23,690 nt of DNA from a virus. The notes below the pieces were generated by a model, which saw only the letters and a list, made by a program, of their open reading frames with translations, was not told the origin of the DNA and searched no databases. The number at the start of each line of letters is the position of its first letter. Positions within the stretch are counted from its first letter, which is position 1. The DNA is taken from positions 1 through 23,690 of the IMG/VR virus record IMGVR_UViG_3300032334_001428; one strand, 5' to 3'. This document shows, in pieces, positions 1 through 23,690 of this stretch. The position numbers were made by a program, and so were the translations under genes.

Positions 1-1
1 A

Positions 2-403
2 ACCTCAGCAACAACATATAATACACATGCTGAAGGTATTGGTACACTTGCTAGTGGTACTGGTTCACACGCTGAAGGTTATGGTACCAAAGCAACTGGA
101 ATTAATTCACATTCACAAAACTTATATACAACAGCATCTGGGTTTTATTCACATGCGGGTGGTTCAGGTTCAACCGCAACTGGTGTTTCATCATTCATTC
201 ATTCATCCAATTCAACAGTAAGTGGTGATAGAAGTGCTGTTATTGGTGGTCAAAATATAGTTGGGTCAACTGCTGATACAGTTTATATGCCTAAAGTTGA
301 ATTAGATGAAGTCGCAGCTTCAATTATAATGAAAAGTCCAGATGGAACTAGATATAAATTAACAATTGCAAATGGTGGTACAATTAGTATTGTAACTGCT
401 TAA
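2..403 (+). CDS. Tail fibre-like protein with YadA-head-like repeats, C-terminal part (5' end outside window)
   Basis: The frame is open from base 2 to the TAA at 401-403, giving 133 residues of the C-terminus; the start lies outside the window. Residues 1-90 consist of degenerate repeats of about 14 residues built on SHAEGxGTxASG (examples: THAEGIGTLASG, SHAEGYGTKATG, TTASGFYSHAGG, STVSGDRSAVIGG). This is the pattern of the left-handed beta-roll of trimeric autotransporter heads (YadA-like), which is also common in phage tail fibres. The last 40 residues contain KSPDGTRYKLTIANGG, a C-terminal beta motif I associate with receptor-binding fibres of flavobacterial phages and prophages. The likely role is a trimeric fibre that contacts the host surface. 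Its position directly before the sheath and tube genes fits a tail protein. A terminator follows 22 bases after the stop. The family and fold call is good; which fibre it is and its receptor are unknown. Confidence 0.75.
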   Translation, partial: TSATTYNTHAEGIGTLASGTGSHAEGYGTKATGINSHSQNLYTTASGFYSHAGGSGSTATGVSSFIHSSNSTVSGDRSAVIGGQNIVGSTADTVYMPKVELDEVAASIIMKSPDGTRYKLTIANGGTISIVTA

Positions 404-424
404 AAAATATTAACAATAAAAAAC

Positions 425-449
425 AAGCTGGAATTTCCAGCTTTTTTTT
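425..449 (+). terminator. Intrinsic terminator after the tail-fibre gene
   Basis: The inverted repeat AAGCTGGAA / TTCCAGCTT (425-433 / 435-443) is followed by a run of T. It sits 22 bases after the fibre stop codon. The T run overlaps the last codon of the opposing minus-strand gene, which therefore converges on it. Confidence 0.85.
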
Positions 450-597
450 ATTCACCATATAAGTCTTTTGGTTTAACACACCTTTCTTTTATTATCTTTT
501 CAACAAAAGAAAACATTTTTAAACCATTTTCTTCGCAATACTCTTTTAATATTTGGTGAGTATTTGGGGTGATTTTAAGGTTTTTTGTTCTTTTCAT
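448..597 (-). CDS. Small ribbon-helix-helix DNA-binding protein (predicted)
   Basis: On the minus strand an ATG at 597-595 opens a 49-codon frame ending with TAA at 450-448. The protein has a basic first strand (KRTKNLKIT), then a helix (PNTHQILKEYCEENG), then a second helix (FSFVEKIIKERC). This is the beta-alpha-alpha layout of ribbon-helix-helix (Arc/MetJ/CopG type) repressors, and the length is typical of that fold. Members of the family dimerise and bind short operators through the strand pair. It is the only minus-strand gene in the window and converges on the fibre gene. Its upstream DNA (598-669) contains two palindromes that could be its operator, and a TATTTATT box 20 bases before the ATG (610-617 on the plus strand). 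No Shine-Dalgarno is visible. The fold is inferred by pattern only, and the regulated promoter is a guess. Confidence 0.6.
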   Translation of the reverse strand: MKRTKNLKITPNTHQILKEYCEENGLKMFSFVEKIIKERCVKPKDLYGE

Positions 598-615
598 AAG
601 TCTTTATTTAATAAA

Positions 616-642
616 TATGACAAAAGTAATACATTTGTCATA
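616..642. promoter_or_regulatory. Perfect 9-bp inverted repeat, candidate operator
   Basis: TATGACAAA (616-624) and TTTGTCATA (634-642) are exact reverse complements separated by 9 bp. Each strand also carries a TAnnTTTG box (the Bacteroidota -7 consensus) across this site: TACATTTG on plus, TACTTTTG on minus. The site lies between the divergent ribbon-helix-helix gene and the sheath gene, so a role in controlling either is plausible. No clear -33 TTG element was found at the right distance. Confidence 0.45.
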
Positions 643-646
643 CTAT

Positions 647-669
647 TTTTTGTTGTAAAACAACAAAAA
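647..669. promoter_or_regulatory. Second inverted repeat (hairpin or operator)
   Basis: TTTTTGTTGT (647-656) pairs with ACAACAAAAA (660-669) across a 3-base spacer. It is AU-rich, so it would be a weak terminator in either direction. It stands next to the 616-642 palindrome, so it may be a second operator half-site pair. Confidence 0.35.
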
Positions 670-690
670 GAATTTTTTCGATTTTTACTA

Positions 691-706
691 TATATTTATT
701 ATAAAA
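691..706 (+). promoter_or_regulatory. Putative phage late promoter element before the sheath gene
   Basis: TATTTATTATAAAA starts at 693, 50 nt before the sheath ATG. It matches elements before the tube, the 4366, 5279, 6687, 10936 and 23185 genes. The family TATTTATA is the reverse complement of the T4 late promoter core TATAAATA. Whether it works in this orientation is not known. Confidence 0.5.
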
Positions 707-742
707 TGAATCAAGATAATAATAAATTAAAAAAAGTAAATA

Positions 743-3577
743 ATGGCAGATAAAGTATTCGTCAGTCCAGGTGTGTACACATCCGAGAAAGATTTAACCT
801 TTGTTACACGTCAGGTTGGTGTAACAACATTAGGGTTAGTTGGTGAGACAACTCAAGGACCAGCTTTCCAACCTATTTTCGTTTCTAACTATGATGAATT
901 TAGGTCATTCTTTGGTGGTTTAAATGCTACTAGAGTTAAAGACACTGGTGCACCTAAGTATGAATTACCATACATTGCAAAATCATATTTATCACAATCA
1001 AACCAATTATTCGTAACTAGAGTATTAGGTTTTTCTGGATATGATGCTGGTTTAGCATGGGGTATCACATTAAGTGCTGCATTGGACCCAGCAACAATCG
1101 GTGAAGTTTCTACTTCATCTTATGACCCATTAATATCATTTGTAGCAAATTCTGGTGGTACGATTACAAGTTTAGTATCTGCTGACCCAGTTGTTCAAGA
1201 CTTATGGGATAATGGTTATTTAAATTTAGATTATTTAGCGTCTTCTTCAGTTGGACCGCTTACATCAATACCAGTGGTATTTGAAAAAGTTGGTACAGCA
1301 TTCCAAGGAGCTGAGATTGATAACTTCTATTTAGTTTCAACTACATCTGATGCTAATGGTGTTACGGGTTCTACATCTGGTGATACTATTGTTTATTCAG
1401 GTACTGGTTATGCTGGTGTTGAAAATAAAGTAGTTGCTTTATTACGTTCTAGAGGTAGATACAATGGTTCTGAGCAATTAGTATTTGAAGTTTCTGCAAA
1501 CACTCAAGTTACATTTGGTTCAACACCAACTACTGCTGAATTCAGCCCTTATGGTGATTTCTCAATTACTGGTTCATCAAATATTTCTGGTGCATTTAGT
1601 TATGTCTTATCATTTGATAAAACTAAGAAAAATTATATTACAAATGTATTAGGTAGAGACCCACAAGATGGTAAGACAGCATTGTTTGTTGAAGAAATCT
1701 ATGAAAATATGTTTAGTGATTATATTACTAATGATGAGGTGTTAGGTATTAACATTACAAACTTAGTTGAATATAACAGAGCATTCGATGATTATAAAAA
1801 AGAATTCCAACCAGCTGTAACTCCATGGGTTGTATCTGAACTTCGTGGTACAAACTTAATGAGATTATTCAGACTTTGGACAATTTCTGATGGTAATTCT
1901 GCTAATAAACAATTTAAAATTTCAATTAGAAACATCCAACCAGATGCTAAAGAATTTGATTTGATAGTTAGAAGTTACTATGATACTGATGCTAGACCAA
2001 ATATTTTGGAAGCTTATAGTAGATGTTCAATGAACCCAGCTTCAAACAATTACATTGCTAAAAGAATTGGTTCATTAGATGGTGAATTCCCTTCAATGTC
2101 AAACTATATTTTAGTTGAGATGGAAAGTGATTCTAATACATCTGATGCTTTCCCAGCTGGATTTATTGGTTACCCACAGAGAGATTATACTGAAAATAAT
2201 AATACAACTGTTCAAGCTCCAAATATTGAATATAAAAGAACATATGGTGCATTTGAGAACAAACGTAAATATTATTTAGGTTTAACTGATACATTAGGAA
2301 TCGACCAAGATTTCTTTGATTACAAAGGTGCACCAGATAGTACAACAACAGATATTTGGACTGGTATGACTTATGGTTTCCATATGGATGTTCATGCTAG
2401 TGCTGCAACAATTGATAATGTTCATATTGTTATTAATTCAACTGGTGGTACATATAGCCCAGTTTATAAATTTGAAACTGGATGTTGTTCATTCCAAAAT
2501 GATTTCCAATTACAAGGAACTGATTACGAAAAATTATACTCTCGTAAATTTACATTCGTACCTTTCGGTGGATTTGATGGTTGGGACCCATATAGAACTA
2601 GAAGAACAAATACTGACCCTTATTTAATTAACGGTACAAAAGGTTCTGCTGGTTTAAATAATGGTACATTCGCTAATAGAACATTATCTAACGGTGACCC
2701 AGGTATTACATCTGATTACTATGCATACTTAGAGGCTATTTGGACATTCAAAAACCCAGAAGCAACAAATATTAACGTATTCGCAACTCCAGGTATCGAT
2801 ACATTTAGTAACACTAACTTAATTGAGGAATCAATTGAAATGGTTGAACAAGATAGAGCTGACTCTTTATACATTGTTACAACACCTGACACAGATGCTG
2901 CTGGTGATGTATTAACTGTAGAAGATGTAACTGACCAATTATACGGACAATTTGATAGTAACTACACTTGTACATACTGGCCATGGATTCAAATTAATGA
3001 TGCTGAAAATAATGTATACATTTACGTTCCACCAACAAGAGATGTTGTTAGAAACATTGCATTAACTGATAATATTGCATTCCCTTGGTTCGCCGTTGCT
3101 GGTGTTCAAAGAGGTGATGTTGATGCTATCAAAGCAAGAGTTAAATTAACATTAGGTGAAAGAGACGTATTATACGAAAACAGAATTAACCCAATTGCAA
3201 CATTTGCATCTGAAGGTATTAAAATTTGGGGTAACAAAACATTACAAGTTAAAGAGAGTGCTCTTGACAGAATCAATGTTAGAAGATTGTTACTACAAGC
3301 TAGAAAACTTATCTCTGCTGTTGCAATTAGATTACTATTCGAACAAAATGATGATATAGTTAGAAATCAATTCTTAAGTTTGGTTAACCCAATCTTAGAT
3401 AACATTAGAAGTGAAAGAGGTTTAACAGACTTTAGAGTAGTTCTTGATGTAACTCCAGAATCTATTGATAGAAATGAGTTATGTGGTAGAATATTCTTGA
3501 AACCAACTAGAGCTTTAGAATTTATCTGTGTTGAGTTCAACATTGTACCAACTGGTGCTTCATTTGATGATATCTAA
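743..3577 (+). CDS. Contractile tail sheath protein (T4 gp18-like)
   Basis: A 944-residue protein that polymerises around the tail tube and contracts to drive the tube through the host envelope. The N-terminus FVSPGVYTSEKD followed by a TLGLVGETTQGPAFQPIFV stretch is the classic sheath start. The last 130 residues (about 815-944) hold the conserved C-terminal domain: RINPIATF, EGIKIWGNKTL, LDRINVRRLL, LFEQND, and a final FLKPTRALEFI with VPTGASF. T4 gp18 is about 660 residues, so roughly 280 extra residues are present. Low-complexity Ser/Thr/Gly segments at about 130-330 suggest insertion domains exposed on the sheath surface. The ATG at 743 was chosen because MADKVFVSPG begins right at the family's conserved start. 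The leader is A-rich without a Shine-Dalgarno. A terminator follows, then the tube gene, which is the usual sheath-tube order. Confidence 0.95.
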   Translation: MADKVFVSPGVYTSEKDLTFVTRQVGVTTLGLVGETTQGPAFQPIFVSNYDEFRSFFGGLNATRVKDTGAPKYELPYIAKSYLSQSNQLFVTRVLGFSGYDAGLAWGITLSAALDPATIGEVSTSSYDPLISFVANSGGTITSLVSADPVVQDLWDNGYLNLDYLASSSVGPLTSIPVVFEKVGTAFQGAEIDNFYLVSTTSDANGVTGSTSGDTIVYSGTGYAGVENKVVALLRSRGRYNGSEQLVFEVSANTQVTFGSTPTTAEFSPYGDFSITGSSNISGAFSYVLSFDKTKKNYITNVLGRDPQDGKTALFVEEIYENMFSDYITNDEVLGINITNLVEYNRAFDDYKKEFQPAVTPWVVSELRGTNLMRLFRLWTISDGNSANKQFKISIRNIQPDAKEFDLIVRSYYDTDARPNILEAYSRCSMNPASNNYIAKRIGSLDGEFPSMSNYILVEMESDSNTSDAFPAGFIGYPQRDYTENNNTTVQAPNIEYKRTYGAFENKRKYYLGLTDTLGIDQDFFDYKGAPDSTTTDIWTGMTYGFHMDVHASAATIDNVHIVINSTGGTYSPVYKFETGCCSFQNDFQLQGTDYEKLYSRKFTFVPFGGFDGWDPYRTRRTNTDPYLINGTKGSAGLNNGTFANRTLSNGDPGITSDYYAYLEAIWTFKNPEATNINVFATPGIDTFSNTNLIEESIEMVEQDRADSLYIVTTPDTDAAGDVLTVEDVTDQLYGQFDSNYTCTYWPWIQINDAENNVYIYVPPTRDVVRNIALTDNIAFPWFAVAGVQRGDVDAIKARVKLTLGERDVLYENRINPIATFASEGIKIWGNKTLQVKESALDRINVRRLLLQARKLISAVAIRLLFEQNDDIVRNQFLSLVNPILDNIRSERGLTDFRVVLDVTPESIDRNELCGRIFLKPTRALEFICVEFNIVPTGASFDDI

Positions 3578-3586
3578 AAAAATAAT

Positions 3587-3616
3587 AAAAGGGGGTTATT
3601 AATTAACCCCTTTTTT
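3587..3616 (+). terminator. Intrinsic terminator after the sheath gene
   Basis: GGGGTTA (3592-3598) pairs with TAACCCC (3604-3610), extended by A/T pairs and followed by TTTTTT. It lies 10 bases after the sheath stop. Confidence 0.92.
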
Positions 3617-3636
3617 AAAAAAAATAGAATTATCAA

Positions 3637-3650
3637 TATTTATAATAAAA
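3637..3650 (+). promoter_or_regulatory. Putative phage late promoter element before the tube gene
   Basis: TATTTATAATAAAA starts 45 nt before the tube ATG and just after the sheath terminator. It is identical over 14 bases to the element at 4320-4333. Confidence 0.55.
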
Positions 3651-3681
3651 GATAACAAAAAAAAATTAAAAATAAAAGAAC

Positions 3682-4170
3682 ATGGCTGATTTATTAATGA
3701 AAATGCCCGTACCTTATGAGCCTAAAAAGAAGAATAGATGGCTTTTAAGATTTCCAGCTGATTTGGGTATACAAGAATGGTGGTTAGCGTCTGCATCAAG
3801 ACCATCAATTACACAGAATGAAGTTGAAATTCCTTTCTTAAATACATCTACTTGGGTAATCGGTAGATTTACTTGGGAATCTATTAGTGTAACTTTTAGA
3901 GACCCGATTGGTCCATCTGCTGCACAAGCTATCATGGAGTGGGTTCGTTTACAATCAGAATCTATTACTGGTAGACAAGGTTATGCTGCTGGTTACAAAA
4001 AAGATATTGAATTAGAAATGCTTGACCCAACGGGTGTTGTTATTGAGAAATGGCAATTACAAGGGACAATGTTAACTAACGTTAACTTTGGTGACTTATC
4101 AATGGATGATGATGGTATCGCAGATATCACAGCTGACTTGAGATTTGACAGAGCTATACTTTTGTTCTGA
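3682..4170 (+). CDS. Tail tube protein (T4 gp19-like)
   Basis: A 162-residue protein, the same size as T4 gp19 (163). It forms stacked hexameric rings of the inner tail tube that conduct DNA. Diagnostic stretches are PKKKNRWLLRFP near residue 15, the strands around SITQNEVEIPFLN, the segment WESISVTFRDPIGPSAAQ, GYAAGYKKDIELEMLDPTG near residue 105, and the GDLSMDDDGIADITADLRFD end typical of the T4-type tube fold. The ATG at 3682 gives the family's MADLLMKMPVPYEP start; a second in-frame ATG (codon 6) is less likely. It lies directly downstream of the sheath gene but behind its own terminator and promoter-like element, so tube and sheath dosage could be set independently. The stop is TGA, one of only two non-TAA stops here. 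Confidence 0.94.
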   Translation: MADLLMKMPVPYEPKKKNRWLLRFPADLGIQEWWLASASRPSITQNEVEIPFLNTSTWVIGRFTWESISVTFRDPIGPSAAQAIMEWVRLQSESITGRQGYAAGYKKDIELEMLDPTGVVIEKWQLQGTMLTNVNFGDLSMDDDGIADITADLRFDRAILLF

Positions 4171-4183
4171 TATATTGATAATC

Positions 4184-4203
4184 AAGTACTTATGTACTTT
4201 TTT
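4184..4203 (+). terminator. Hairpin-T terminator after the tube gene (first of two)
   Basis: AAGTAC (4184-4189) and GTACTT (4194-4199) form a short stem with a TTAT loop followed by T residues, 13 bases past the tube stop. The stem is short and AT-rich, so it is probably leaky. A stronger terminator follows at 4281. Confidence 0.55.
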
Positions 4204-4280
4204 AAAATTAATAGGAAAAACCTAAGTAAGAGAATTAAAATGATTAATGAAAATCAAAAAATAATTAAACAATTAAAAGA

Positions 4281-4307
4281 AAACCTATAGAAATATAGGT
4301 TTTTTTT
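4281..4307 (+). terminator. Intrinsic terminator before the 4366 gene (second of two)
   Basis: AAACCTATA (4281-4289) pairs perfectly with TATAGGTTT (4294-4302) around a GAAA tetraloop, with a run of T after it. It sits just before the promoter-like element at 4320. Confidence 0.88.
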
Positions 4308-4319
4308 ATTTTAATCAAA

Positions 4320-4333
4320 TATTTATAATAAAA
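4320..4333 (+). promoter_or_regulatory. Putative phage late promoter element before the 4366 gene
   Basis: TATTTATAATAAAA, the same 14 bases as at 3637. It lies 46 nt before the ATG at 4366 but only 19 nt before the upstream in-frame ATG at 4339. The usual 42-50 nt spacing argues for the 4366 start. Confidence 0.55.
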
Positions 4334-4365
4334 TTGAAATGAGAAAAGGTGATAAAAAACATAAT

Positions 4366-5169
4366 ATGTCTAAAGTTAATTTATTAGCTGAACAGAGGTA
4401 TTTGGAATCAAAAGGTTTAATAAATGAAAACCCAATTGGTGGTGGTTATCTTGGTGATATTGGTCACGTAGATGGAAAAAATGAATTAGCTATGGTTAAA
4501 AGACAAGTTGAGGATTTAAAACCAAATTTTACAATCAATTATGGTGCTTTAAAAGTTATGGATTTAGATTTAGAAATAACTTATGATTTAAATAGTAAAC
4601 TTTATAAAGTTAGAAATAATATTAATGGTAAATTTTATGTTAATAATATATTGTATACTCAATGTGTTGATTGTGAATTTAGAACTGCTGATGAAGTTGT
4701 TAAATTTATAAGACGTAAAGCTGAAGGTGGTGATATTAAATTTATGCCCCAACAAAATGAAGGTGTTGAAGAAGGTGATTTAAACACATATAGAAGTAAT
4801 TTACAAAATACTGGTAACTATCCATGGACAACTTATTTAGGTAATAGAGAAAAGGGTGAATCTGACGAAAAACAAAATATTAAAGATAAGGAAGGATTCG
4901 AAAATGAATTCAAAAAAAGTTATGTTGGACAAACAATTCAAACAACTAACGGGATATATACTTTTTTTGATATAAAATATAAAAATAATTATGGTAATTA
5001 TGATTTGATATTTACAAAACCTAAAGGTGAAAATGATTGGAGTGATACTAATCTTTGGATAACATATGACCCAACACAAGGTTATTATATTGATGAGTAC
5101 AAAGGTATAAAATTAACTGATGCTGACTCAGAAGAGAAAGTAATAGAAATGCTAAGTTATAATAAATAA
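4366..5169 (+). CDS. Unrecognised protein in the tail gene cluster
   Basis: A 267-residue hydrophilic protein with no family I recognise. An in-frame ATG at 4339 would add 9 residues. I prefer 4366 because the product then begins MSKVNLLAEQRYLESKGL and the promoter-like element is 46 nt away, as for its neighbours. Residues 65-130 look like a beta-rich module (FYVNNILYTQCVDCEF with a C-x-x-C pair). The segment at about 130-180 is polar and probably disordered. The last 90 residues (YVGQTIQTTNGIYTFFDIK, then WSDTNLWITYDPTQGYYID) look like another small beta domain. There is no signal peptide or membrane segment. It has its own terminator on each side and sits between the tube and the gp26-like gene, so a virion or tail-assembly role is likely by position only. 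The N-terminal LLAE resembles T4 prohead protease sites (L/I-x-E); see findings. Confidence 0.85.
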   Translation: MSKVNLLAEQRYLESKGLINENPIGGGYLGDIGHVDGKNELAMVKRQVEDLKPNFTINYGALKVMDLDLEITYDLNSKLYKVRNNINGKFYVNNILYTQCVDCEFRTADEVVKFIRRKAEGGDIKFMPQQNEGVEEGDLNTYRSNLQNTGNYPWTTYLGNREKGESDEKQNIKDKEGFENEFKKSYVGQTIQTTNGIYTFFDIKYKNNYGNYDLIFTKPKGENDWSDTNLWITYDPTQGYYIDEYKGIKLTDADSEEKVIEMLSYNK

Positions 5170-5172
5170 CAG

Positions 5173-5198
5173 AAAACCACTTGAGATAGTGGTTTTTT
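5173..5198 (+). terminator. Intrinsic terminator after the 4366 gene
   Basis: AAAACCACT (5173-5181) pairs with AGTGGTTTT (5188-5196) around a 6-base loop, followed by T residues. It lies 4 bases past the stop codon. Confidence 0.9.
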
Positions 5199-8095: not shown

Positions 8096-10681
8096 ATGGC
8101 AAAATACGAATTTGATAAGGAAAAATTTGAAGAGTGGAAAAGAGCTCAAAAAGAATCTGCTGAACTTCAGGAAAAGATGAACAGCAGTATTGGTGGCTAT
8201 TTAGAATCTGTTAAAAAAATTAAGGAATTACAAAAAAATATTCAATTTATTGAGCAAAAAGTTACTCAATTAAAAGAAGAACAACTTAAAGCTGAAAAAG
8301 ATTTAGTAAAAAATACTGAAAAACTTAATAAAGCAACTGCTGACGGTGATGCTGATGAAATTAAAGCTCTTAAAGAAAAAGAAAAAGAGTTAAAGAAAAT
8401 ATTAGCAGCAAAGAAAGAAGGTGTTGCTATAACTGAAAAAGAATTAGGTTTACTTAAACAACAAAATGATGCTTTAGTTGAGTCGGCTAAACAAACTAGT
8501 TTAATAAGTGCTGGTTTAGGTTCAGCTATTGGGTTTTTAGGTAAGGTACCAGGATTGATTGGTAAAGGTTTCGGTATGCTTAAAGGTACTGGTATCTTTG
8601 AGATGGACAAAGAAATCCGTAATGCTGTTCGTAGTATGGCTGGTGGTCAAAAACAGTACGATAATATGTACAATACGATTACTAAAGCCGCAGAAACTAC
8701 AACAATGTGGGGTGTTGGTGTTAAAGATTTAGCGGTAATGCAACGTGGTTATAGTGAAGCTATTGGTAAATCAGTAATGTTAACTGAAGATGGTTATAAA
8801 GCTATGGCTAAGTTAGCTGAAGGTACTGGTTTAGGTAAAGAATTTGCTGTTCAGATTGCTGGTGAAATGGATAAATTTAACATTTCAGCCGAAAGAACAA
8901 GTACAATTGTTGAGTCTACAATGAATAAAGCTGCTAAAATTGGTGTTAATGGTGCCGCAGCTTTAAAATCATTTCAAAATAATTTAAAATTAGCTCAAAG
9001 ATTTAATTTTAAAGGTGGTATTGCTGGATTAGCTAAATTTTCAGCTGAAGCTACTAAACTTAGATTAGACATGGAAGGTATTGCTGGTATGGCTGAAAGG
9101 GTTTTCAGACCAGAAGGTGCTATTGAAATGGCCGCTCAATTAACCACAATGGGTGGTAAGTTTTCTGCACTTGGTGACCCAATGCAATTAATGTTTAAAG
9201 CTAGAAATGACTTTGAAGGTTTTGCTAAAGACATTGGTAAAGCATCGGCTGAATTTGTTGAATTCAATAAGGAAACTGGTGAGTTTAACATTAAAAATGG
9301 TCTTGCTGCTGATAGGATGCGTGAGATATCACAAATAACTGGTATATCGGTTGAGAAGTTGCAAGAGATGGCTGAAGCTGAACAAAGAATACAAGAAGTT
9401 AGAAAAGGTCTTAAAGGTGGTATTTTTAATCAAGAAGATACTGAATTGATAAGTTCATTTGCTAAATTTAAAGATGGTAAATGGAAAATTGAAGCTGGTA
9501 GTTTTAGTAAAGATTTAAAAGATTTAAGTAAAAGTGATATTGCAAGAATTAAATCTGAATCAGAAGCATTGGATAAAAGAGCTGAAGATGCTAGAACATT
9601 TGATGAAACTTTACAAGATTTAATTTTAATGTTTAAACAACAATTATTACCTTTTGCTCAAAAATTAAAAGAAGGTTTGGGTGGTCCAATTCAAGAAATG
9701 GTTAAGAAATGGAGTCAAGAAGGTTTCTTTAAAACATTGAGAGAGTTTGTTAAAGGTGCTGCTGATATGGTTGCTTCATTAGGTAAATGGATTCTTAATA
9801 TTGTTGAATTTTTAGGACCAAAAGGTACAGTAATAGCTGGACTTACACTTGCACTTGCTGGTAAAGCAATTACTTGGATTACTAATGGTATGTATTTAGC
9901 TCAAGGATTCAAAATGGGCGGTGGTGGAATGGGTGGTGGAATGCCTGGTATGCCAGGTGGTGGTGGTGCTTTTGGTGTTCCTGGTGGTCAAATAGGTCCA
10001 GCACTACCAATGAGTGGTATGCAAAAAGCACTTGGTGGAAATATTGCTGGTGGTAAATTTGCTGCTGGAACAATGGGTTCAATGGGTCTTGGGTTAGGTT
10101 TAGGTGTTCTTGGTACTGGTATGCAATACGGTAGAAGTCAAATGGATAATCCAGAAAGTACTGGTGGTAAGATGTTGGGTATTGGTGGTACGGCAGCGCA
10201 ATATGCTGGTATGGGTGCAATGCTTGGACCATGGGGTGCAGCGATTGGTGGTTTAATTGGTGCTGGTGTTGGTACGTATGATGAGTATTTTACTAAAGCT
10301 AAACAAAATATGGGTGGATATGATTCAAGTAGTACATTATATAAATCAAATGATTCAGTAATGTATAACCCACAAGATAAATTCCTAAAGGTTAATGATG
10401 CTGTTCAAATAGCTGGTACAAGTGTTAATGGTAACGCTAAATTAGCACAAGAATTATCTAAAAATAATTCATCTGCACCAAGTGAAATGACACATAAATT
10501 TGAAAATTTAAAAATTACAATTGATGTAAATATACCTGGAAATGAAAAATTAGGTACTCAATTTGCAAATGAACCTGAATTCATGAGAAGAATTAGTGAA
10601 GCTGTAAATAAATCGATTTCACTGGCCGCTGGTGGTGGTAAATTATCAGGTAGTGGTACTAAAAAGTCAGGTAAAGAATAA
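8096..10681 (+). CDS. Tail tape measure protein
   Basis: 861 residues. It fills the tail tube and sets its length, and is normally ejected with the DNA. Residues 1-135 are a long charged coiled coil (EFDKEKFEEWKRAQKESAEL, then repeated K/E-rich heptads). Hydrophobic Gly-rich segments follow at about 137-165 (LISAGLGSAIGFLGKVPGLI), at 565-603 (WILNIVEFLGPKGTVIAGL and beyond) and near 710-725 (GPWGAAIGGLIGAGVG), the kind of membrane-active helices common in tape measures. A Gly/Met/Pro-rich low-complexity stretch begins at residue 607. The C-terminus ends in Gly/Ser/Lys. The middle (170-440) has the Ala-rich, helical tape-measure pattern with AVRSMAGGQKQYDN and IAGEMDKFNISAERTST. At the commonly used ~1.5 angstrom per residue, 861 residues would imply a tail of about 130 nm. 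Its position between assembly factors and baseplate genes fits. The start follows the previous stop by 2 bases. Confidence 0.9.
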   Translation: MAKYEFDKEKFEEWKRAQKESAELQEKMNSSIGGYLESVKKIKELQKNIQFIEQKVTQLKEEQLKAEKDLVKNTEKLNKATADGDADEIKALKEKEKELKKILAAKKEGVAITEKELGLLKQQNDALVESAKQTSLISAGLGSAIGFLGKVPGLIGKGFGMLKGTGIFEMDKEIRNAVRSMAGGQKQYDNMYNTITKAAETTTMWGVGVKDLAVMQRGYSEAIGKSVMLTEDGYKAMAKLAEGTGLGKEFAVQIAGEMDKFNISAERTSTIVESTMNKAAKIGVNGAAALKSFQNNLKLAQRFNFKGGIAGLAKFSAEATKLRLDMEGIAGMAERVFRPEGAIEMAAQLTTMGGKFSALGDPMQLMFKARNDFEGFAKDIGKASAEFVEFNKETGEFNIKNGLAADRMREISQITGISVEKLQEMAEAEQRIQEVRKGLKGGIFNQEDTELISSFAKFKDGKWKIEAGSFSKDLKDLSKSDIARIKSESEALDKRAEDARTFDETLQDLILMFKQQLLPFAQKLKEGLGGPIQEMVKKWSQEGFFKTLREFVKGAADMVASLGKWILNIVEFLGPKGTVIAGLTLALAGKAITWITNGMYLAQGFKMGGGGMGGGMPGMPGGGGAFGVPGGQIGPALPMSGMQKALGGNIAGGKFAAGTMGSMGLGLGLGVLGTGMQYGRSQMDNPESTGGKMLGIGGTAAQYAGMGAMLGPWGAAIGGLIGAGVGTYDEYFTKAKQNMGGYDSSSTLYKSNDSVMYNPQDKFLKVNDAVQIAGTSVNGNAKLAQELSKNNSSAPSEMTHKFENLKITIDVNIPGNEKLGTQFANEPEFMRRISEAVNKSISLAAGGGKLSGSGTKKSGKE

Positions 10682-15165: not shown

Positions 15166-15483
15166 ATGGCAAAATATTTTGATAGATACGAAAAATTCAA
15201 ATTTAGAGGTACGACTACACCAGTACCCTACATAAACATACCCGTTTCCACAACTGATAAAAATGTTGTTTATAAATTAACTAAAACTAGACTTGACAAA
15301 TTAAGTCAAAGTTATTATAATAATCCATATCATGGATTTTTAATAATGTTGGCAAATCCACAATATGGTGGTTTAGAATTTAATATAAAAGACGGTGATG
15401 TTATAAGAATACCATATCCGTTTGATTCAGCATTAGAAAGATATATAAACCAAGTTAATAGATATAAAGAATTATATGGCTGA
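15166..15483 (+). CDS. gp53-like baseplate wedge protein
   Basis: A 105-residue protein. After a short basic N-terminus (MAKYFDRYEKFKFRG) it contains VVYKLTKTRLDKLSQSYY, then a hydrophobic LIMLANPQYGG, then FNIKDGDVIRIPYPFD. This arrangement (y-x-v-t..R.D.LS..YY..p....li..aN.......i..Gd.irIP) is the LysM-like pattern seen in T4 gp53 family baseplate wedge proteins. It is about half the length of T4 gp53, so only the core is present. The start follows the preceding gene by 15 bases and its TGA stop overlaps the ATG of the hub gene by 8 bases (ATGGCTGA), so hub translation is probably coupled to it. Role: part of the wedge that links the hub to the sheath-baseplate ring. The alternative is a stand-alone LysM-like adaptor. 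Confidence 0.75.
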   Translation: MAKYFDRYEKFKFRGTTTPVPYINIPVSTTDKNVVYKLTKTRLDKLSQSYYNNPYHGFLIMLANPQYGGLEFNIKDGDVIRIPYPFDSALERYINQVNRYKELYG

Positions 15484-18400
15484 TTTAGAGGAAGAAAAAG
15501 ATAATAGTAAATCAAGTACTGGTAGAGTAATTTGGGTTGACCCAAATCTGTCAAACAATACAATGGTTAATCCTGAGGATTTATGTATTAAAGTTGATTT
15601 TTCAGCAACTAGAAAGGATAGAAGTATTATTTATTCTGGTAAAGAAAGTATTAATACTATTGGTAATTCTGGCTCTGTTAGATTTATTGAAGGTAGTAAA
15701 GTAAATGAAGAATCATCACAACCATCTTTAACTACTAGATATACTGAAGTTATTGCTTTAGATATTATGAACATGGGTAATACTCAATCTTTTGATGATT
15801 ATGAAAGTTTAGGTATAGAAAGTATCAATATAGAATTTAATACAGCATATGCACCAATGATTAATATCAAATTTATTGATGTTAGAGGTAATGCTATATT
15901 ATCACAAGGTAATATGTCTAAATATAGAATGTTCTTTGAGTTACCATATCCAATATTTAGTTTAAAGGTTAAAGGTTTTTATGGTAAAACAGTTAATTAC
16001 TGTTTGCATATGCAAAGATGGAATGCTGCATTTAATTCAGATACTGGTAATTTTGAAATCCAAGCTGAATTTATTGGTTATACTTATGCATTATTAACCG
16101 ATATGTTAATGGGATTAATTAGAGCATCAGTTAGAACAAAAAGAGGTCAAAAAAAATTAGCAGAAAAACAAGTAGCATATGGTGAAAATTCTAATTTAAT
16201 TATTAGTATTGATGATATGTTAAAAAGGTTGAATGAACTTAATTTTGTATACGATAAAACTAATGAAAATGATGATTCAGTACAACAAGTAAATGCTTAT
16301 GATAGTATATCTGATGATATTGCTAATGTTAAAGGTTTAATCGATACAGCAAGTACTACAATATATGATGGTCAAAATCCACCAAACAATTATTTTAGGT
16401 CAACCACTGGTAGTGTATTAGGTATACCAAATAATGCTGATAATATTAAAAAAGCTGATGATGCTATAAAAACATATAAAGAAAGTATCACAAGTACATT
16501 AACAACAATCAACCCTAATATAATAGATAATAATTTAAAATTAAGTGAAGAAACATTAAATTCAGTTATTATTATTAGTGATATAAAATATAGTGAAATT
16601 AGTAATGAAGATATAAATAATTGTGTTCCATTTATTATACAAAAATCAGCTGGTAAATATTCAGATACTGAAGAAGATAAGAAAAAAATTATTATTTTAT
16701 TAAAAGAAATTAGAGCAGCAATTACAACACCAATTGATAATAATGCTAGTATAAATATATATAGTTTTCTTAGACCTTATTACGAAATTGATGTAAAATC
16801 AGCAGCATTACAAACTAATAGAAATGATACGGTTCAAAGAATAGGTGAACAAGCGGCAAACCAAGCTCAAGAAACGGTTGGTTTTGAACCAACAATTAGA
16901 AACATATTTAGAGTATTATCAGTAAACTGTGAAATATTTCTAGAAGTATTAAGAGAAGTTTCAGTTGAAGCTCAAACAGATAAAGATGGTAAAAGAGCTG
17001 TTGAATTTAATAAGATTTCTGGTAAAATAAATGTTAACCAAAAAGAAATTCAAAGTAATAATATATATCCATGGCCAGAATATAGACAGAAAAAAGGTAG
17101 TGAGGGATATGAAGAAACTTGGTTAGGTTCAGCACCTGGTATTGTACCAATGAATATTCAAGAAGTCGTATTTACTGAAGAATTACATAAAGAATTATTG
17201 AATGTAGCTAAATTTGATAAAGAATTAGATGCCGAACAAGCTGAACAAGGTGCAGATATAGATTCATTACCAGAACAAATAAAAGACCCTTGGTTTCCAA
17301 TATCAGTTGTTGATACACCACCGTCTGGTATGGAACAAAATCCATACATTGCAGCATGTGAAACTGGAAAAAGTGATGAAGTACTTAGATTGTTACTAAT
17401 GAGAGGTTTTTTATTATTAGGTACATCATCAGTAAATTCAAAAATTGAAACAGATTTAGTAAAAATTTATGGTGAATTAGAAGCTGCAAATTTATATGAA
17501 GCTGCTAAAAAAACTGAAAATGGTTTAAATATAATTAAAGAATTACAAAATTTAGGTGGAAATACTGACCCAGTTAAACAAACTAACCATGTATTATTTT
17601 ATAATGGATTAGAAGGTAAAGATACAATTAAAAACCCAGGTGTTAATGAAGGTGAGAAAAAACCAATAATGGAAAAGATTACTGGAACAACTACCTATTA
17701 TAAGTACACGTATATTATAGATAATAAAGATAATAGGTCATATATACCAGTAAATAAAAACTATGATGGTTCTGTATTTTATAGTGGTAATAAATTAAAA
17801 TCACAAAAATCTATAAAAAATTTATCACCAGATACAATATATGTAAGTAAACCTAAAAATTTATGGGAATTTGGTGCTGGAAAAAATGGTTCGAATTATA
17901 AAAAATCAGAATCAGATGGTTCTTATTTATTTAAAATAATCGATAAAAATACATATACCGCTAAAGCTATGACACCAGGTTTTGGTACTGATATAATTGA
18001 TAAATATAAAACAAAGTTTGCTGAAAAAACCATTATGCCATCGACATTTAAAAATGCGTATATATCAAATCCAAGTAATAGCGCCGTAGTTTTAGGTATA
18101 TTAAACCCTTTAGGTGGTAATTATGCTGCTTTAGAAGTAAATAATTTAGATTATAATGGATTTGGAACATCAACATATCAGAATTGGGTTGGTGAAGGTC
18201 CATCAATACCTGACCAACCTATTTCATCATCAATATCAGCATTTTATAGTCAAAATATACAAGAAACAGAATACCCATTTGGGTCTTATTTATGTAATAA
18301 AAATACTAAAGAAGAATACTATACTGATAGAATGCCAAGTGAAGAAGATAAAACTTTTAAAATACAACCATATGATAAAGCAATAAGTATTTATGGGGCT

Positions 18401-21400
18401 AATAAACAAAACTTGAATAGACGTTTTCCAGACTTTGGAAAACAAAAATATTTAATTGATAAATTTTTAGTTAGTGAATCTAAACCATATGTACCATTTA
18501 TTGAATTTGGGTTTGCTGAAAGTTTAACTTTTTCTTTATTCGGTAGTAAATTTTATAATTACCAATGGAGTACTAGAGTAAAAGCATTATTATTTTTACA
18601 TACATTTCCATGGCAAGGTGTTATTACACCTGGTGATGATTCATCTGAATTTGCAATGTTTGACACTAGAAAAGAAGCTGGATTAACAGAAAGTGACCCA
18701 TATGGTTTAACACAAATATTATCAATAAAATCAATGTTTAAATTAAATGGCGCATTTGTTAATGCACCAAAAGCATGGGTATTATTTATTGGTGGTATTC
18801 TTTGGAGAAATCAATATGGGTATTCAGAAGGTAAAGACCCAATGGTTTTTGACAACGCTGGTAGTAATACCTCTGTATTCAGTAGATTAATACCAAGATA
18901 TACGGGTAGAAAACCAACAATAAGAGAATATTTATATTATTCTGAAAATAGTTTTGAACCTTGGGGTATGTATTTTAATAGTGACCCTGATAAAGAATAT
19001 ACTCAAACTGATTGTTATACACCTATTGATAGAACATTATTGGGATTACCATCTGATATTAAAGATTATTTGATTAAATATTTTGAAAATTGGGTTAATG
19101 ATGAAGTTTCTGGATTTAAATACTTTCAAAAAGAATTAGAAATTTGGTACGGTAGAGATAGTGATAAATCAAATGAGGATAAGAGTATTATAAAATATGA
19201 AAATAAATGGAAATTAATTAAGCAAGCTATTGACGCACCAGGTGATACAAATACCTCTAAAATTACAAAGTATCTAAATGATAACTCAAATATATTGAAA
19301 AATTATAATATGGTTACTACAGCATTATTTAATCAAGATAATGATGAAGAATCAAATGGTAATTTTCAATTCAATTTAGAATTAAGACCTGATACTGAAG
19401 TAATGAACAATATAGTTGGTTTATTAACTGAAACTGTTTATATACAAAATTGTGTACCAAGTTCATTAATACCGTCAACAATTACATATACAACTATCAA
19501 TACTAATATCACTACAAATTTAAATTTAAATTTAAGTTATGCTCCCGATAATTTAGATTATCTCACTAAAAGTGTTTCAAGTTATCACGATTCAATACTA
19601 GCAACTGGTTATTTATTTAGAGGTTTTCTAGAAACATTTTTTACTAAATTAAATAGTACAGAACCAAGTAAAGAAAAAACAGAAGATGACCAAGCTGAAC
19701 AAGAAATATTTGGTACAAGTGATGATAAAACTATTAATTTATTAATATACAGAACATTATCATCAATTAATGATAAATGGATTAATGGAACCTCAGACAA
19801 TTCAATTTTTGGTCAATGTTCAGGTTCTAACAAAAATCCAAAAGATGTTGCATTAGGTGCTAAATATAGAAGTGGTGCAACAACAGCTGAACTTATTGAT
19901 ACATTTAGATTTGTTGATAGAGCATTTTGGGATATAGGTGATAAATTTTATTTAAATATTAATGCAATATCCGATATGATTAAACATCATTACAATGATA
20001 GCTTTTTTGATATTGTAAATAAAATATTAACGGATAATAACTTTAACTTTATACCATTACCAACGTTTGTTAATTTTAATAATGTTGATGAATTAAAAAC
20101 TGTATTTACACCATATTCGTATAACGATGAGGTTGGTTTTAGTGGTACTGGTCCATCATTTGTTTGTGTATTCGTTGGTCAATCATCAACTAATTTAGAT
20201 TTAGGACCTGAATCTGTTTATCCAGATGATGGGTTATCAATAAGTATGGATGAATCTGGTGCTGGACTTGATTTGATTGATGAGAAAGAAGACTTTGCAA
20301 AAGAAGTTGGAGTTGGTGAATTTAATGTACCAGTATTTGCGGTAAATTACGGACAACAAAATCAAAATTATTTTAGAAGTGTAAAACTTGACCAAAGAGA
20401 ATTTACTGAAACAATGGAATCATTACAAATCATTGAAGATATATCACAAAATGGTGATAAAAGTAAACCAACGTATGCTGGTAATAACTTATTTAATGTT
20501 TATCAAACTAGGTCATATAGTGCTGAAATTGAAATGATGGGTTCAGCAATGATTCAACCAATGATGTATTTCCAATTAAATAATATACCGATGTTTAGAG
20601 GTGCTTATTTGATTTATAAAGTAAATCACTCAATTAAACCACACTCAATGACGACAACAATTAAAGGTAATAGGGTTAAAAAATCAAAAACACCTTTAAT
20701 TGATAAATATACAATGTATATGAATCTAGTTGGTGGTGGTAGTAATGGAGGTACCGCTGGCATTAGAGATGGTGGCGGTAACGGTGGATATAATTCAACA
20801 CCTGGTGCTAAATTTATTGATACAAATATTGAATTCTACTGGTTAACACAAGATGGTAAAATACCAACGGGTAAAGATACACTTGGTTTAACCAATTCAA
20901 ATAAACAATTTACTGGTATGAAAAAACAATCTGGCGCTAGAAGTTACGCATTAAGAGAAGTTGTTGAAGTATTACAAAAAGTTTCACTTGAATTTTATAA
21001 AAAATATAAAGATAATTCAGCAGCACCAGATACTGTTTATTATAATGATGCATCTAAATTATGGGGTGGAACATTATCACCACATAAAAGTCATACTAAA
21101 GGTATTGATATTGATGTTAGACAATTATTTTATGGTAAATCAACTGCTGCTGGTGCAAATTGTAGTGATAATGGTTCTAGTAACTATTCAAAAAAATATA
21201 CAAAAGAATGGGTTACTGGATTATTAAAAACACCATTTAGAAAATATACATTAACTGGTGATAAAGAAATAAAATATACAAGTACTGATGGTTCAGTTAA
21301 AACTGCAAAAAAAGGTGACACAATATCAGACCAAAGGTCTATTGAAATTATTTGGTTTAACGATACTAGTTTACAAAGTGAATTAAATTCTGAATTTAAA

Positions 21401-22117
21401 CCTAGTCCTGGATATAATAAAATAATGGCAACACTTGATGGTCACTGTAATCACTTACACGTTAGATTCAATACACCTATAAGAGTTACTGAAGAAACAG
21501 AAAAAGGTGAAAATAGTAGACCAGCAACACAAGGTAATCCAGATGATAATGGTTCAAACCCACCAGCTGGATGCTCAAAAGTAATTACTGCACCAAAAGT
21601 ACAAATAGATACTAAAACAGTATATAATAGTTTAAAGAAAATAACAAAATTAAGTGATAGTGCAATATCAGGTATTATGGGTAATATGTATGCTGAATCA
21701 AGGTTTATACCAGAGTCATATAATACAGGTGGTGGAGGTTGTGGAGCATATGGTTTAGTTCAATGGAGAAGTGATAGACAAAAAGGGTTATTTAAATATT
21801 CAACAGATAAATCATTAGCGGTAAATTCAATAGATGCCCAAGTCGGATATTTAAACTCAGAATTAATTGATTTATTTAAATTTACTCTTGCAGCATTGAA
21901 ATCACACGCTGGAACACCTGAAAATGCTGCAAAAATATTCCATCAAACATGTGAATTAACAACTTATGGTACCATAGACTTTTCCGTTAGCAAAGTATTA
22001 AACGGACAATTAACTGTTGATGATAAAGTAATAACAACACCTAAAATTAGAATCGATAGGGCTAATGAGTTTTATAAAATGATAAAAAGTGGTGATTTTA
22101 AATTACCAAGTGCATAA
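15476..22117 (+). CDS. Giant baseplate hub/puncturing protein with MepA-like peptidase and phage tail lysozyme domains
   Basis: A 2213-residue protein. Hub-like parts: residues about 95-215 (IESINIEFNTAYAPMINIKF, then FFELPYPIFSLKVKGFYGKT and ADMLMG-like helices) and about 1610-1745, ending MFRGAYLIYKVNHSIKPHSM and TTTIKGNRVKK, a pattern of gp27/gpD-type hub proteins. After a Gly-rich linker (about 1755-1772) comes a LAS-type metallopeptidase (about 1776-2005). H1870 and H1873 lie in PHKSHTKGIDIDVR, where H1873 and D1880 match SHQSGLDVD of MepA (M74), and H1993-L-H1995 in HCNHLHVRF supplies the last zinc ligand. The last domain (about 2035-2190) matches phage tail lysozyme (Phage_lysozyme2): SGIMGNMYAESRF with E2074 as the likely catalytic acid, then GGGGCGAYGLVQWRSDRQ. 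Predicted job: pierce the outer membrane and cut both peptide and glycan bonds of murein. It overlaps the gp53-like gene. Much of residues 220-1600 is unrecognised. Confidence 0.88.
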   Translation: MADLEEEKDNSKSSTGRVIWVDPNLSNNTMVNPEDLCIKVDFSATRKDRSIIYSGKESINTIGNSGSVRFIEGSKVNEESSQPSLTTRYTEVIALDIMNMGNTQSFDDYESLGIESINIEFNTAYAPMINIKFIDVRGNAILSQGNMSKYRMFFELPYPIFSLKVKGFYGKTVNYCLHMQRWNAAFNSDTGNFEIQAEFIGYTYALLTDMLMGLIRASVRTKRGQKKLAEKQVAYGENSNLIISIDDMLKRLNELNFVYDKTNENDDSVQQVNAYDSISDDIANVKGLIDTASTTIYDGQNPPNNYFRSTTGSVLGIPNNADNIKKADDAIKTYKESITSTLTTINPNIIDNNLKLSEETLNSVIIISDIKYSEISNEDINNCVPFIIQKSAGKYSDTEEDKKKIIILLKEIRAAITTPIDNNASINIYSFLRPYYEIDVKSAALQTNRNDTVQRIGEQAANQAQETVGFEPTIRNIFRVLSVNCEIFLEVLREVSVEAQTDKDGKRAVEFNKISGKINVNQKEIQSNNIYPWPEYRQKKGSEGYEETWLGSAPGIVPMNIQEVVFTEELHKELLNVAKFDKELDAEQAEQGADIDSLPEQIKDPWFPISVVDTPPSGMEQNPYIAACETGKSDEVLRLLLMRGFLLLGTSSVNSKIETDLVKIYGELEAANLYEAAKKTENGLNIIKELQNLGGNTDPVKQTNHVLFYNGLEGKDTIKNPGVNEGEKKPIMEKITGTTTYYKYTYIIDNKDNRSYIPVNKNYDGSVFYSGNKLKSQKSIKNLSPDTIYVSKPKNLWEFGAGKNGSNYKKSESDGSYLFKIIDKNTYTAKAMTPGFGTDIIDKYKTKFAEKTIMPSTFKNAYISNPSNSAVVLGILNPLGGNYAALEVNNLDYNGFGTSTYQNWVGEGPSIPDQPISSSISAFYSQNIQETEYPFGSYLCNKNTKEEYYTDRMPSEEDKTFKIQPYDKAISIYGANKQNLNRRFPDFGKQKYLIDKFLVSESKPYVPFIEFGFAESLTFSLFGSKFYNYQWSTRVKALLFLHTFPWQGVITPGDDSSEFAMFDTRKEAGLTESDPYGLTQILSIKSMFKLNGAFVNAPKAWVLFIGGILWRNQYGYSEGKDPMVFDNAGSNTSVFSRLIPRYTGRKPTIREYLYYSENSFEPWGMYFNSDPDKEYTQTDCYTPIDRTLLGLPSDIKDYLIKYFENWVNDEVSGFKYFQKELEIWYGRDSDKSNEDKSIIKYENKWKLIKQAIDAPGDTNTSKITKYLNDNSNILKNYNMVTTALFNQDNDEESNGNFQFNLELRPDTEVMNNIVGLLTETVYIQNCVPSSLIPSTITYTTINTNITTNLNLNLSYAPDNLDYLTKSVSSYHDSILATGYLFRGFLETFFTKLNSTEPSKEKTEDDQAEQEIFGTSDDKTINLLIYRTLSSINDKWINGTSDNSIFGQCSGSNKNPKDVALGAKYRSGATTAELIDTFRFVDRAFWDIGDKFYLNINAISDMIKHHYNDSFFDIVNKILTDNNFNFIPLPTFVNFNNVDELKTVFTPYSYNDEVGFSGTGPSFVCVFVGQSSTNLDLGPESVYPDDGLSISMDESGAGLDLIDEKEDFAKEVGVGEFNVPVFAVNYGQQNQNYFRSVKLDQREFTETMESLQIIEDISQNGDKSKPTYAGNNLFNVYQTRSYSAEIEMMGSAMIQPMMYFQLNNIPMFRGAYLIYKVNHSIKPHSMTTTIKGNRVKKSKTPLIDKYTMYMNLVGGGSNGGTAGIRDGGGNGGYNSTPGAKFIDTNIEFYWLTQDGKIPTGKDTLGLTNSNKQFTGMKKQSGARSYALREVVEVLQKVSLEFYKKYKDNSAAPDTVYYNDASKLWGGTLSPHKSHTKGIDIDVRQLFYGKSTAAGANCSDNGSSNYSKKYTKEWVTGLLKTPFRKYTLTGDKEIKYTSTDGSVKTAKKGDTISDQRSIEIIWFNDTSLQSELNSEFKPSPGYNKIMATLDGHCNHLHVRFNTPIRVTEETEKGENSRPATQGNPDDNGSNPPAGCSKVITAPKVQIDTKTVYNSLKKITKLSDSAISGIMGNMYAESRFIPESYNTGGGGCGAYGLVQWRSDRQKGLFKYSTDKSLAVNSIDAQVGYLNSELIDLFKFTLAALKSHAGTPENAAKIFHQTCELTTYGTIDFSVSKVLNGQLTVDDKVITTPKIRIDRANEFYKMIKSGDFKLPSA

Positions 22118-22144
22118 TTAATAAATTATTACTATATTTGCAAT

Positions 22145-22741
22145 ATGTTTGTTGGAAATATAATAACACATAGTAATATTAATGTTGATAAGTACTTTAA
22201 AGTAGTTAACTCATTGGATGATGTTATTGATGGTTTACCAACTTTAATCGTAGGTTGGGATATAGTTAAGACAATAAATCCAAATGCGGACTTTATTGAT
22301 AAAAAATTATCAGAAAATATTTTTTGGACTTTCAAAAAGAGTGAACGTAGAGATATTTTTGAAGATGATTTTTATAATTTTACTGAATATTGTTATGGTT
22401 TATTAATTAAAGACATTGAATACAAATTTATTGATTTGATACAACTAAATGAAACTGAATTAAAAAACACATTTAGATTCATTAAAAAAAATGAAAATGT
22501 TGTTGGGTATTTATACAATAAAATGTTATACATTTTTGTTGAAAAAACCATATATGGTCTTGATTTAACCCTATTAAAATATATGGATTATAATACTGAT
22601 GATGTATTATGTAAAATAAAATCATATTGTTCAGTATTTTTGGATAATAAAGAAATACTTATAGAATACAAGGATGTAATTGACATGTTAAACAACGAGG
22701 TCAAGTACATCCCATTTTTGTACTCTATAGAGCATGGATAA
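22145..22741 (+). CDS. Unrecognised 198-residue protein
   Basis: A 198-residue soluble protein with many aromatic residues that I cannot assign to a family. Notable stretches are GLPTLIVGWDIVKTINPNAD (residues about 30-50), FWTFKKSERRDIFEDDFYNF (about 60-80), and a helical C-terminus ending FLYSIEHG. There is no signal peptide or membrane segment. It starts 27 bases after the hub stop; the leader contains TATATTTG (22133-22140), a match to the Bacteroidota -7 box, but no -33 partner. Its last 8 bases (ATGGATAA) are shared with the start of the next gene, so the two are translationally coupled and may work together. Their place between the baseplate genes and possible head genes is the only clue to role. 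Confidence 0.85.
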   Translation: MFVGNIITHSNINVDKYFKVVNSLDDVIDGLPTLIVGWDIVKTINPNADFIDKKLSENIFWTFKKSERRDIFEDDFYNFTEYCYGLLIKDIEYKFIDLIQLNETELKNTFRFIKKNENVVGYLYNKMLYIFVEKTIYGLDLTLLKYMDYNTDDVLCKIKSYCSVFLDNKEILIEYKDVIDMLNNEVKYIPFLYSIEHG

Positions 22742-23132
22742 AACAGTATTATTAGCATCTTTCATTTTTAAGGATAGGTTAGATTGGTTTCTAAATTATT
22801 TAGAGTCTGATTTTTCTATACCTAAAAACACTGTTTTTATTTATGAAACAGATGATGAATCTAAACACATGGTCACATTTAAGTTTTTAATTAAATTTGG
22901 TGAAAAAGTAAACTTCAAAGAAATCTTCCCGAATGCCACATTAGTACATAAAAAAGGTAATGCTATTTACAGTATTAATGGGTTAAATAAGTTAATAGAA
23001 ACTTATAATACTGAAAACGTTGGAAACATCAACTATAAGAGTGTAAAAATAGATTGGTCATTATATCAGGATAAATTATTGTTAATTAGGAATAATAATT
23101 TAGTAATAACCGATATTAAGCGAATTTTATAA
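22734..23132 (+). CDS. Unrecognised 132-residue protein coupled to the 22145 gene
   Basis: A 132-residue protein without a family I recognise. It starts MDKTVLLASFIFKDRLDWFL, and contains KNTVFIYETDDESKHMVTFK, FPNATLVHKKGNAIYSINGL and a C-terminal KVDW-like element (KSVKIDWSLYQDK). It could be a small alpha/beta fold. The N-terminal LLASFIF is a hydrophobic beta strand rather than a signal peptide, because charged residues follow at once. The ATG overlaps the previous stop in an ATGGATAA arrangement. No terminator was found after it. The pair may be a phage morphogenesis or packaging accessory set, but nothing in the sequence shows that directly. Confidence 0.83.
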   Translation: MDKTVLLASFIFKDRLDWFLNYLESDFSIPKNTVFIYETDDESKHMVTFKFLIKFGEKVNFKEIFPNATLVHKKGNAIYSINGLNKLIETYNTENVGNINYKSVKIDWSLYQDKLLLIRNNNLVITDIKRIL

Positions 23133-23142
23133 GATTATTAGA

Positions 23143-23156
23143 TATTTATATACAAA
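23143..23156 (+). promoter_or_regulatory. Putative phage late promoter element before the 58-residue gene
   Basis: TATTTATATACAAA begins 42 nt before the ATG at 23185, the same spacing as for the sheath, tube and gp26-like genes. Confidence 0.5.
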
Positions 23157-23184
23157 TAGATAATTAAAATTTAAAACAATAGTC

Positions 23185-23361
23185 ATGGAAGATAATAATA
23201 AAAAACAAAATTTGGAAAATAAACTTGATGAGTTTTTAACTACTGAAAATAAAAACATGGAATGTAACGATGAAGGTTGCATCATTAAAAACGATAAAAG
23301 TTTAGTTGAGAGAATCAACAAAAAAATAATAACTGAAGACGGAAGACAATTATTATTTTAA
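23185..23361 (+). CDS. Small unrecognised 58-residue protein
   Basis: A 58-codon ORF from ATG 23185 to TAA 23359-23361. The N-terminus is polar and Asn/Lys/Glu-rich (MEDNNKKQNLENKLDEFL). A short Cys pair follows (MECNDEGC), and the C-terminus is KSLVERINKKIITEDGRQLL with a final F. The ending ITEDGRQLL looks like a conserved C-terminal tag; I have the impression of similar endings in other phage small proteins but cannot name the family. A promoter-like element lies 42 nt upstream and the next gene starts 35 bases downstream, so the two are probably co-transcribed. It is too short for function to be inferred; placement before an acidic protein could fit a prohead core or other morphogenesis set. 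Confidence 0.7.
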   Translation: MEDNNKKQNLENKLDEFLTTENKNMECNDEGCIIKNDKSLVERINKKIITEDGRQLLF

Positions 23362-23396
23362 TATTACAATATTTTACAGTTAATTAATCAACTAAA

Positions 23397-23690
23397 ATGA
23401 GAAGTAAAAAAATAAATAAAGCATTATTAAGTGAAGAACTTAAAAGATTTAAGTCACTTACTGATTACAATTATTACGATGATAGAAAACCAATATCTGA
23501 AAATTTCCCAATCGTAGCAATGGAAGATGATAGAGCACCAGAACCAAATGTTATTTTAGGTATGGCCGAAGCTGAAGAAGACGAGGCAAATGTACCAGCT
23601 GAAGATAATGTTGATGCTGATGTTGAAGATATCACAGCTGACATTGAAGCTAAAACTGATACACCAGAAGCACCAGTTGATGATGCAAAC
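23397..23690 (+). CDS. Acidic protein, N-terminal part (3' end outside window)
   Basis: An ATG at 23397 opens a frame that runs to the window edge (98 codons, no stop). The N-terminus is basic and helical (MRSKKINKALLSEELKRFKS), then YNYYDDRKPISENFP. From about residue 45 it becomes extremely acidic and Ala/Pro/Val-rich (ILGMAEAEEDEANVPAEDN, then more D/E/A repeats). Acidic low-complexity chains are typical of prohead core or scaffold proteins (as in T4 gp67/gp22) and of linkers. The LLSE near the start resembles L-x-E sites of T4-type prohead proteases. With only the first part visible, a core/scaffold role is a possibility and not a call. No Shine-Dalgarno; the leader is A/T-rich. Confidence 0.75.
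   Translation, partial: MRSKKINKALLSEELKRFKSLTDYNYYDDRKPISENFPIVAMEDDRAPEPNVILGMAEAEEDEANVPAEDNVDADVEDITADIEAKTDTPEAPVDDAN

Follow-up and report, generated by a model that had tools for sequence, protein, structure and literature searches.

Why should a phage sequence more than 23 kb long contain not a single GATC? The question is raised by IMG/VR virus record IMGVR_UViG_3300032334_001428, a 23.7-kb virus fragment analysed here over its whole length of 23,690 bp (the window), whose genes encode virion parts of a T4-like myovirus, namely the sheath, the tube, baseplate proteins, what is likely the tape measure, and a protein with a tail lysozyme domain. A preliminary description had reported no GATC where about 50 might be expected, and had read this as the trace of selection against a GATC-recognising activity. 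A machine count finds zero GATC on either strand, the word being self-complementary, and a survey of relatives places the window in a clade of large phages that is purged of every GATC and of nearly every CCGG.

Word counts are given below as observed/expected, where the Markov expectation is of maximal order, derived from trinucleotide counts per strand. For the window a second expectation was obtained by permuting synonymous codons among sites within its genes in 20 shuffles. In this sequence of 29.3% guanine-plus-cytosine (GC) content, GATC is expected 57.5 times per strand under the Markov model and 52 times on average after codon shuffling, with a minimum of 43 in the 20 trials, which agrees well with the earlier rough estimate. 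A second word, CCGG, had no part in the preliminary description and is likewise zero, with 9 copies expected by the Markov model and 7 by codon shuffling (minimum 3 in 20). Composition alone might have depleted other four-base words equally, as that description had allowed. Most other palindromes lie near expectation instead, AGCT, GTAC, CTAG, TGCA, CATG and GANTC all coming close to the codon-shuffle value in the window; CGCG is zero there with merely one to three copies expected and is hence uninformative. Avoidance is specific to the word and does not extend to palindromes or composition at large.

Codon choice in the window's genes bends around each would-be GATC much as had been proposed. 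Asp, usually GAT, is GAC at all 33 codons that precede C, as against a GAT:GAC ratio of 405:40 elsewhere (Fisher p = 6e-31), and Arg before TC is AGG six times and AGA never, with an AGA:AGG ratio of 197:14 elsewhere (p = 3e-7). GGA before TC is found in 0 of 23 cases, and ATC after G in 0 of 40 compared with 41 of 482 elsewhere (p = 0.06). The six AGG sites, each within 3 bases of the position first given for it, are as follows.

902..906, + strand: AGG-TC site at which Arg has moved from its usual AGA, so that AGATC is avoided.
11548, 16397, 17735, 20510 and 21335: further AGG-TC sites with the same Arg shift as at 902.

The extent of avoidance was surveyed with the window's sheath gene as query, first in 80 IMG/VR loci with a sheath 65–95% identical to that of the window and later in about 250 related loci, which rules out a sampling accident confined to one window. 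Among the 80 loci CCGG is absent from all (437 expected) and GATC from 72. Eleven long contigs of the clade, 1,015,977 bp in all, give GATC 0/2555 and CCGG 1/498, and four further contigs (254 kb) give 0/775 and 0/176, so that the 15 long contigs together (1.27 Mb, a total that leaves out one long contig of the GATC-tolerant subclade described below) stand at 0/3330 for GATC and 1/674 for CCGG. Under a simple mutation-selection model the 1.02-Mb subset, with its 0/2555, corresponds to a 2Nes per GATC site of at least about 6.7. The sole CCGG lies at about 145.2–145.9 kb of contig G002 within an HNH homing-endonuclease-like open reading frame (ORF), which is probably a recent arrival. CGCG is missing or far below expectation in a good many members (G002, G004, G006, G008, G010, G011 and the window; 65/260 in the long contigs) and GRCGYC stands at 1/16 in G002; these shortages probably reflect additional restriction specificities that are less widespread.

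Where the two words part company can be seen on a 229-tip tree of the sheath. In the 97-tip clade that contains the window, GATC is zero except in one nested 13-tip clade and the singleton L159, and CCGG is zero except in L175 and L159. Within the nested subclade GATC has returned to about 10–20% of expectation with CCGG still at zero. On its 56-kb contig G015, GATC stands at 36/207 (about 17%), dispersed over the entire contig, and CCGG at 0/74. The GATC sites of this subclade are common to its relatives and are therefore inherited, not sequencing noise. Loci that have regained GATC, with a raised GC content of 35–41%, are L060, L062, L063, L072, L074, L076, L077, L079, L154–L156, L161, L177 and L178. 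The return of GATC without CCGG indicates that the two words answer to separate agents, and at least two recognition activities, one per word, would be implied. A GATC methyltransferase gained by the subclade was considered as the cause of its tolerance; on the 56 kb of G015, which is part of a genome, neither a methyltransferase of the Dam, N6/N4 or C5 type nor QueC was found. In a third clade, next to that of the window and related to a contig from a Prochlorococcus single-cell genome, GATC reaches roughly half its expected count, and CCGG is either absent or at normal frequency according to lineage.

A different outcome is seen in the clade of Flavobacterium phage immuto, a T4-like phage of 160 kb with a related sheath and terminase. 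Unlike the window's clade, it avoids neither word (GATC 2733/3034, CCGG 1270/1062). Immuto encodes DpdA together with the Que pathway, and a dpdA relative is present in all nine long contigs of its clade; searches for dpdA found none in 12 contigs of the window's clade or in nine of the third clade. DpdA-dependent 7-deazaguanine shields phage DNA against restriction (PMC6884629). It would appear that phages sharing related virion genes either possess a gene for modification or are free of the sites. No sign of protection by phage-encoded methyltransferases was seen in the window's clade outside G002: Dam-type, N6/N4 and C5 DNA methyltransferases were all missing from the other contigs searched. 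That contig, the only one searched to have them and also the holder of the sole CCGG, encodes two adjoining C5 cytosine methyltransferase ORFs of 351 and 306 amino acids (C1 137618–139732; L096:17618–19732).

Our data favour, with a probability of roughly 0.78, a model in which host restriction at GATC and CCGG, probably in Bacteroidota, selects against single sites. Each word would be the target of its own sequence-specific restriction activity in the hosts, and the large T4-like phages of the window's clade would be under permanent restriction at both. Even one unprotected site would carry a good chance of cleavage upon entry, removing site-creating mutants, and synonymous codons and spacers would have drifted into forms unable to make GATC or CCGG. 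Such phages would do without the chemical protection, by 7-deazaguanine in DNA or DNA methyltransferases, that other phages of similar hosts use. The activity on the GATC side could be of the MboI/DpnII, Sau3AI/MutH, DpnI-like methyl-directed or phosphorothioation-linked kind, all of which fit. Of the original interpretation, strong selection against a GATC-recognising activity holds up, since the avoidance is complete, clade-wide, word-specific, absent in the dpdA clade and relaxed in one subclade; a single GATC system is incomplete as an account, because CCGG is purged too and the two words are separable.

The complete absence, its confinement to two words, its reach across the clade and its loss for GATC alone in one subclade are observed; that the agent is host restriction and that the hosts are Bacteroidota is inferred. 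The clade's hosts are probably marine and freshwater Bacteroidota (flavobacteria-like). Its start signals match those of flavobacterial phages: 4% of start regions have a Shine-Dalgarno sequence, 68% have A at -3, and positions -14 to -11 are A-rich. The same signature is found in immuto, pT24, FCL-2 and phi4:1, and that of Microcystis phage Mel-JY01 differs (32% Shine-Dalgarno). An ORF of contig G001 that matches Peptidase_M43, with an N-terminus that appears to resemble a Bacteroidota secreted protein, points the same way. Tenacibaculum phage pT24, which is not among the sheath or terminase relatives listed, has GATC at 0/159 and CCGG at 0/14 in 50 kb and would represent a convergent case in support of host-driven avoidance. 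CCGG is also absent or depleted in flavobacterial phages P12002L, phi4:1, phi14:2, FCL-2 and P12024L, and is neither in phi13:2, phi18:1 and phiST. In F. psychrophilum one of the two commonest restriction-modification (R-M) systems is an HpaII-like one for CCGG; a prevalent C5-methyltransferase for GATC and a CGCG system also occur (PMC11837570). Flavobacterial CCGG and GATC systems are neighbours in a cassette transferred to a protist mitochondrion (PMC8099122). For GATC, this flavobacterial evidence favours a C5-methyltransferase system over MboI/Dam (PMC11837570, PMC8099122).

Several points weigh against host restriction in Bacteroidota as the explanation. R-M repertoires usually change faster than a clade with 65–95% identical sheaths, so a permanent zero for two words needs unusually constant host systems or broad host mixing. 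Relaxed avoidance where dpdA is carried is a single clade-versus-clade contrast and does not comprise a series of independent cases. Throughout, CATG is rarer than the Markov model predicts, a shortfall for which codon use accounts. Assignment to Bacteroidota is based on translation-start signatures and distant relatives, and the lone cellular-assembly locus of the sheath family (55% identical, clade C) comes from a Prochlorococcus single-cell genome. That locus, L140, is a 51-kb phage contig of Prochlorococcus sp. AG-409-L21 (QCKH01000012.1), and its clade has Bacteroidota-like starts with 2% Shine-Dalgarno; it may represent virus-particle contamination or an unexpected or wider host. Lastly, the F. 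psychrophilum GATC methyltransferase has no recognised partner nuclease (PMC11837570).

The same partnerless enzyme, prevalent as it is, lends some weight to a methyl-directed (Type IV or DpnI-like) or phosphorothioation-linked host defence acting at GATC in place of classical restriction (PMC11837570). Avoidance deletes the target whichever state of it is cut, and HF1-like haloviruses, whose hosts have both methyl-GATC restriction and GATC phosphorothioation, also shun the word (PMC7230728). We consider this alternative unlikely, although sequence cannot separate it from classical restriction; CCGG would need a second such system.

Self-avoidance is more doubtful. Here the phage itself would encode a nuclease that cuts host or competitor DNA at GATC and CCGG, so that no such site could be tolerated in the phage genome. 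This would explain both avoidance that is constant across the clade whatever the host and the intolerance of each single site, and the many ORFs of G001 and G003 without a Pfam match shown leave room for novel nucleases. Families of the known type are not in evidence, as no match to DpnII (PF04556), HpaII (PF09561) or MutH/Sau3AI (PF02976) was found among the 13–20 records searched, a search confined to known families, and a PADLOC scan yielded a single marginal REase_II match (E 6e-4). Avoidance of these words is also seen in flavobacterial phages that do not belong to the clade, an argument for the host as its source. A version in which the clade has its own uncharacterised GATC/CCGG nuclease, with the purged genome as its price and one specificity lost by the GATC-tolerant subclade, is if anything slightly less credible.

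That the phages evade nicking at GATC by mismatch repair of the MutH type is very improbable. Dam/MutHLS repair is a gammaproteobacterial trait, the clade's start signals appear to be Bacteroidota-type, not gammaproteobacterial, and the equal purge of CCGG would go unexplained by mismatch repair. The idea has precedent in enterobacterial phages, GATC counter-selection by mismatch-repair components having been discussed for coliphages (PMC5014478). A compositional or codon artefact of an AT-rich genome can be dismissed, for although CG-rich words are scarce through composition at 29% GC, shuffling gives back at least 43 GATC in every trial and a mean of 7 CCGG, and the immuto clade is AT-rich too (immuto 34% GC) yet has normal counts.

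The virion genes are arranged in the window as follows.

743..3577, + strand: tail sheath gene, 944 amino acids (Pfam Phage_sheath_1C, E 7e-7), in which Asp-Pro is always GAC-CC.
3682..4170, + strand: tail tube gene, 162 amino acids, from position, order and the annotated tube of a Microcystis phage relative.
5279..6373, + strand: T4-like baseplate hub-type protein (Pfam T4_baseplate, E 3e-5, slightly short of the cut-off).
8096..10681, + strand: 861-amino-acid protein without a Pfam match, likely the tape measure from its position and composition.
15476..22117, + strand: 2213-amino-acid baseplate or tail protein with a C-terminal phage tail lysozyme domain (Phage_lysozyme2, E 2e-20).

Positions 2–403 encode the closing part of a protein, probably a tail fibre or adhesin, that has repeats resembling the YadA head (SHAEGYGTKATG...) and no Pfam match. 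Relatives of 158–163 kb were found. Sheath and tube close G001 and open G003, and complete genomes may therefore be about 300 kb. That G001 and G003 share few genes is no argument for two gene contents without relation to each other, since the two contigs probably represent, for the most part, complementary portions of such genomes. In G003 a 393-amino-acid ORF (L104:14689–15870) is, from its N-terminus, probably the G003 member that matches OrfB_IS605 and Cas12f-like models, and thus probably a TnpB-like protein inside a GATC-free phage.

Site avoidance is an established phage strategy, of which this clade is a new, large and well-resolved example, extreme and clean. Among 46 phages of hosts with a GATC endonuclease, GATC is under-represented without exception, with CB below 0.8 in 45 of them (PMC6286503); such general avoidance is under-representation, as distinct from the total absence of GATC over 1.27 Mb seen here. 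Staphylococcal Twort-like phages such as phage K and fRuSau02 are without GATC (PMC5618024), and phage K served as a control for our method, its count of 0/78 in 30 kb matching the published absence (PMC5618024). They resemble the window's clade as large myoviruses whose zero GATC is attributed to host restriction, and differ in having a Firmicute host and normal CCGG (19/17). Microcystis phage Mel-JY01 has a related sheath (34%) and GATC at 0/90 in 42 kb (L139, 11977–54403), but unlike the clade it has CTAG at 0/36, normal CCGG (226/191) and several DNA methyltransferases of its own elsewhere in the genome. A further parallel is the HF1-like haloviruses, in which GATC and CTAG are wholly absent throughout the group (PMC7230728). 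As in the window's clade, two four-base palindromes are missing from every isolate, attributed there to host R-M and methyl-directed restriction; the hosts are archaeal and the second word is CTAG rather than CCGG. The window's clade differs further in that one subclade has lost GATC avoidance and a related clade has a base-modification gene instead.

Together these phages provide a clean natural experiment on restriction pressure, in which two words are held at about zero over more than 1 Mb of one clade, GATC alone has returned in one subclade and a related clade with a DNA-modification gene avoids neither. Avoidance predicts the restriction specificities of the host, here GATC and CCGG, and would aid the naming of hosts for uncultured phages. 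The GATC-tolerant subclade lets one ask how quickly sites return once a restriction system disappears.

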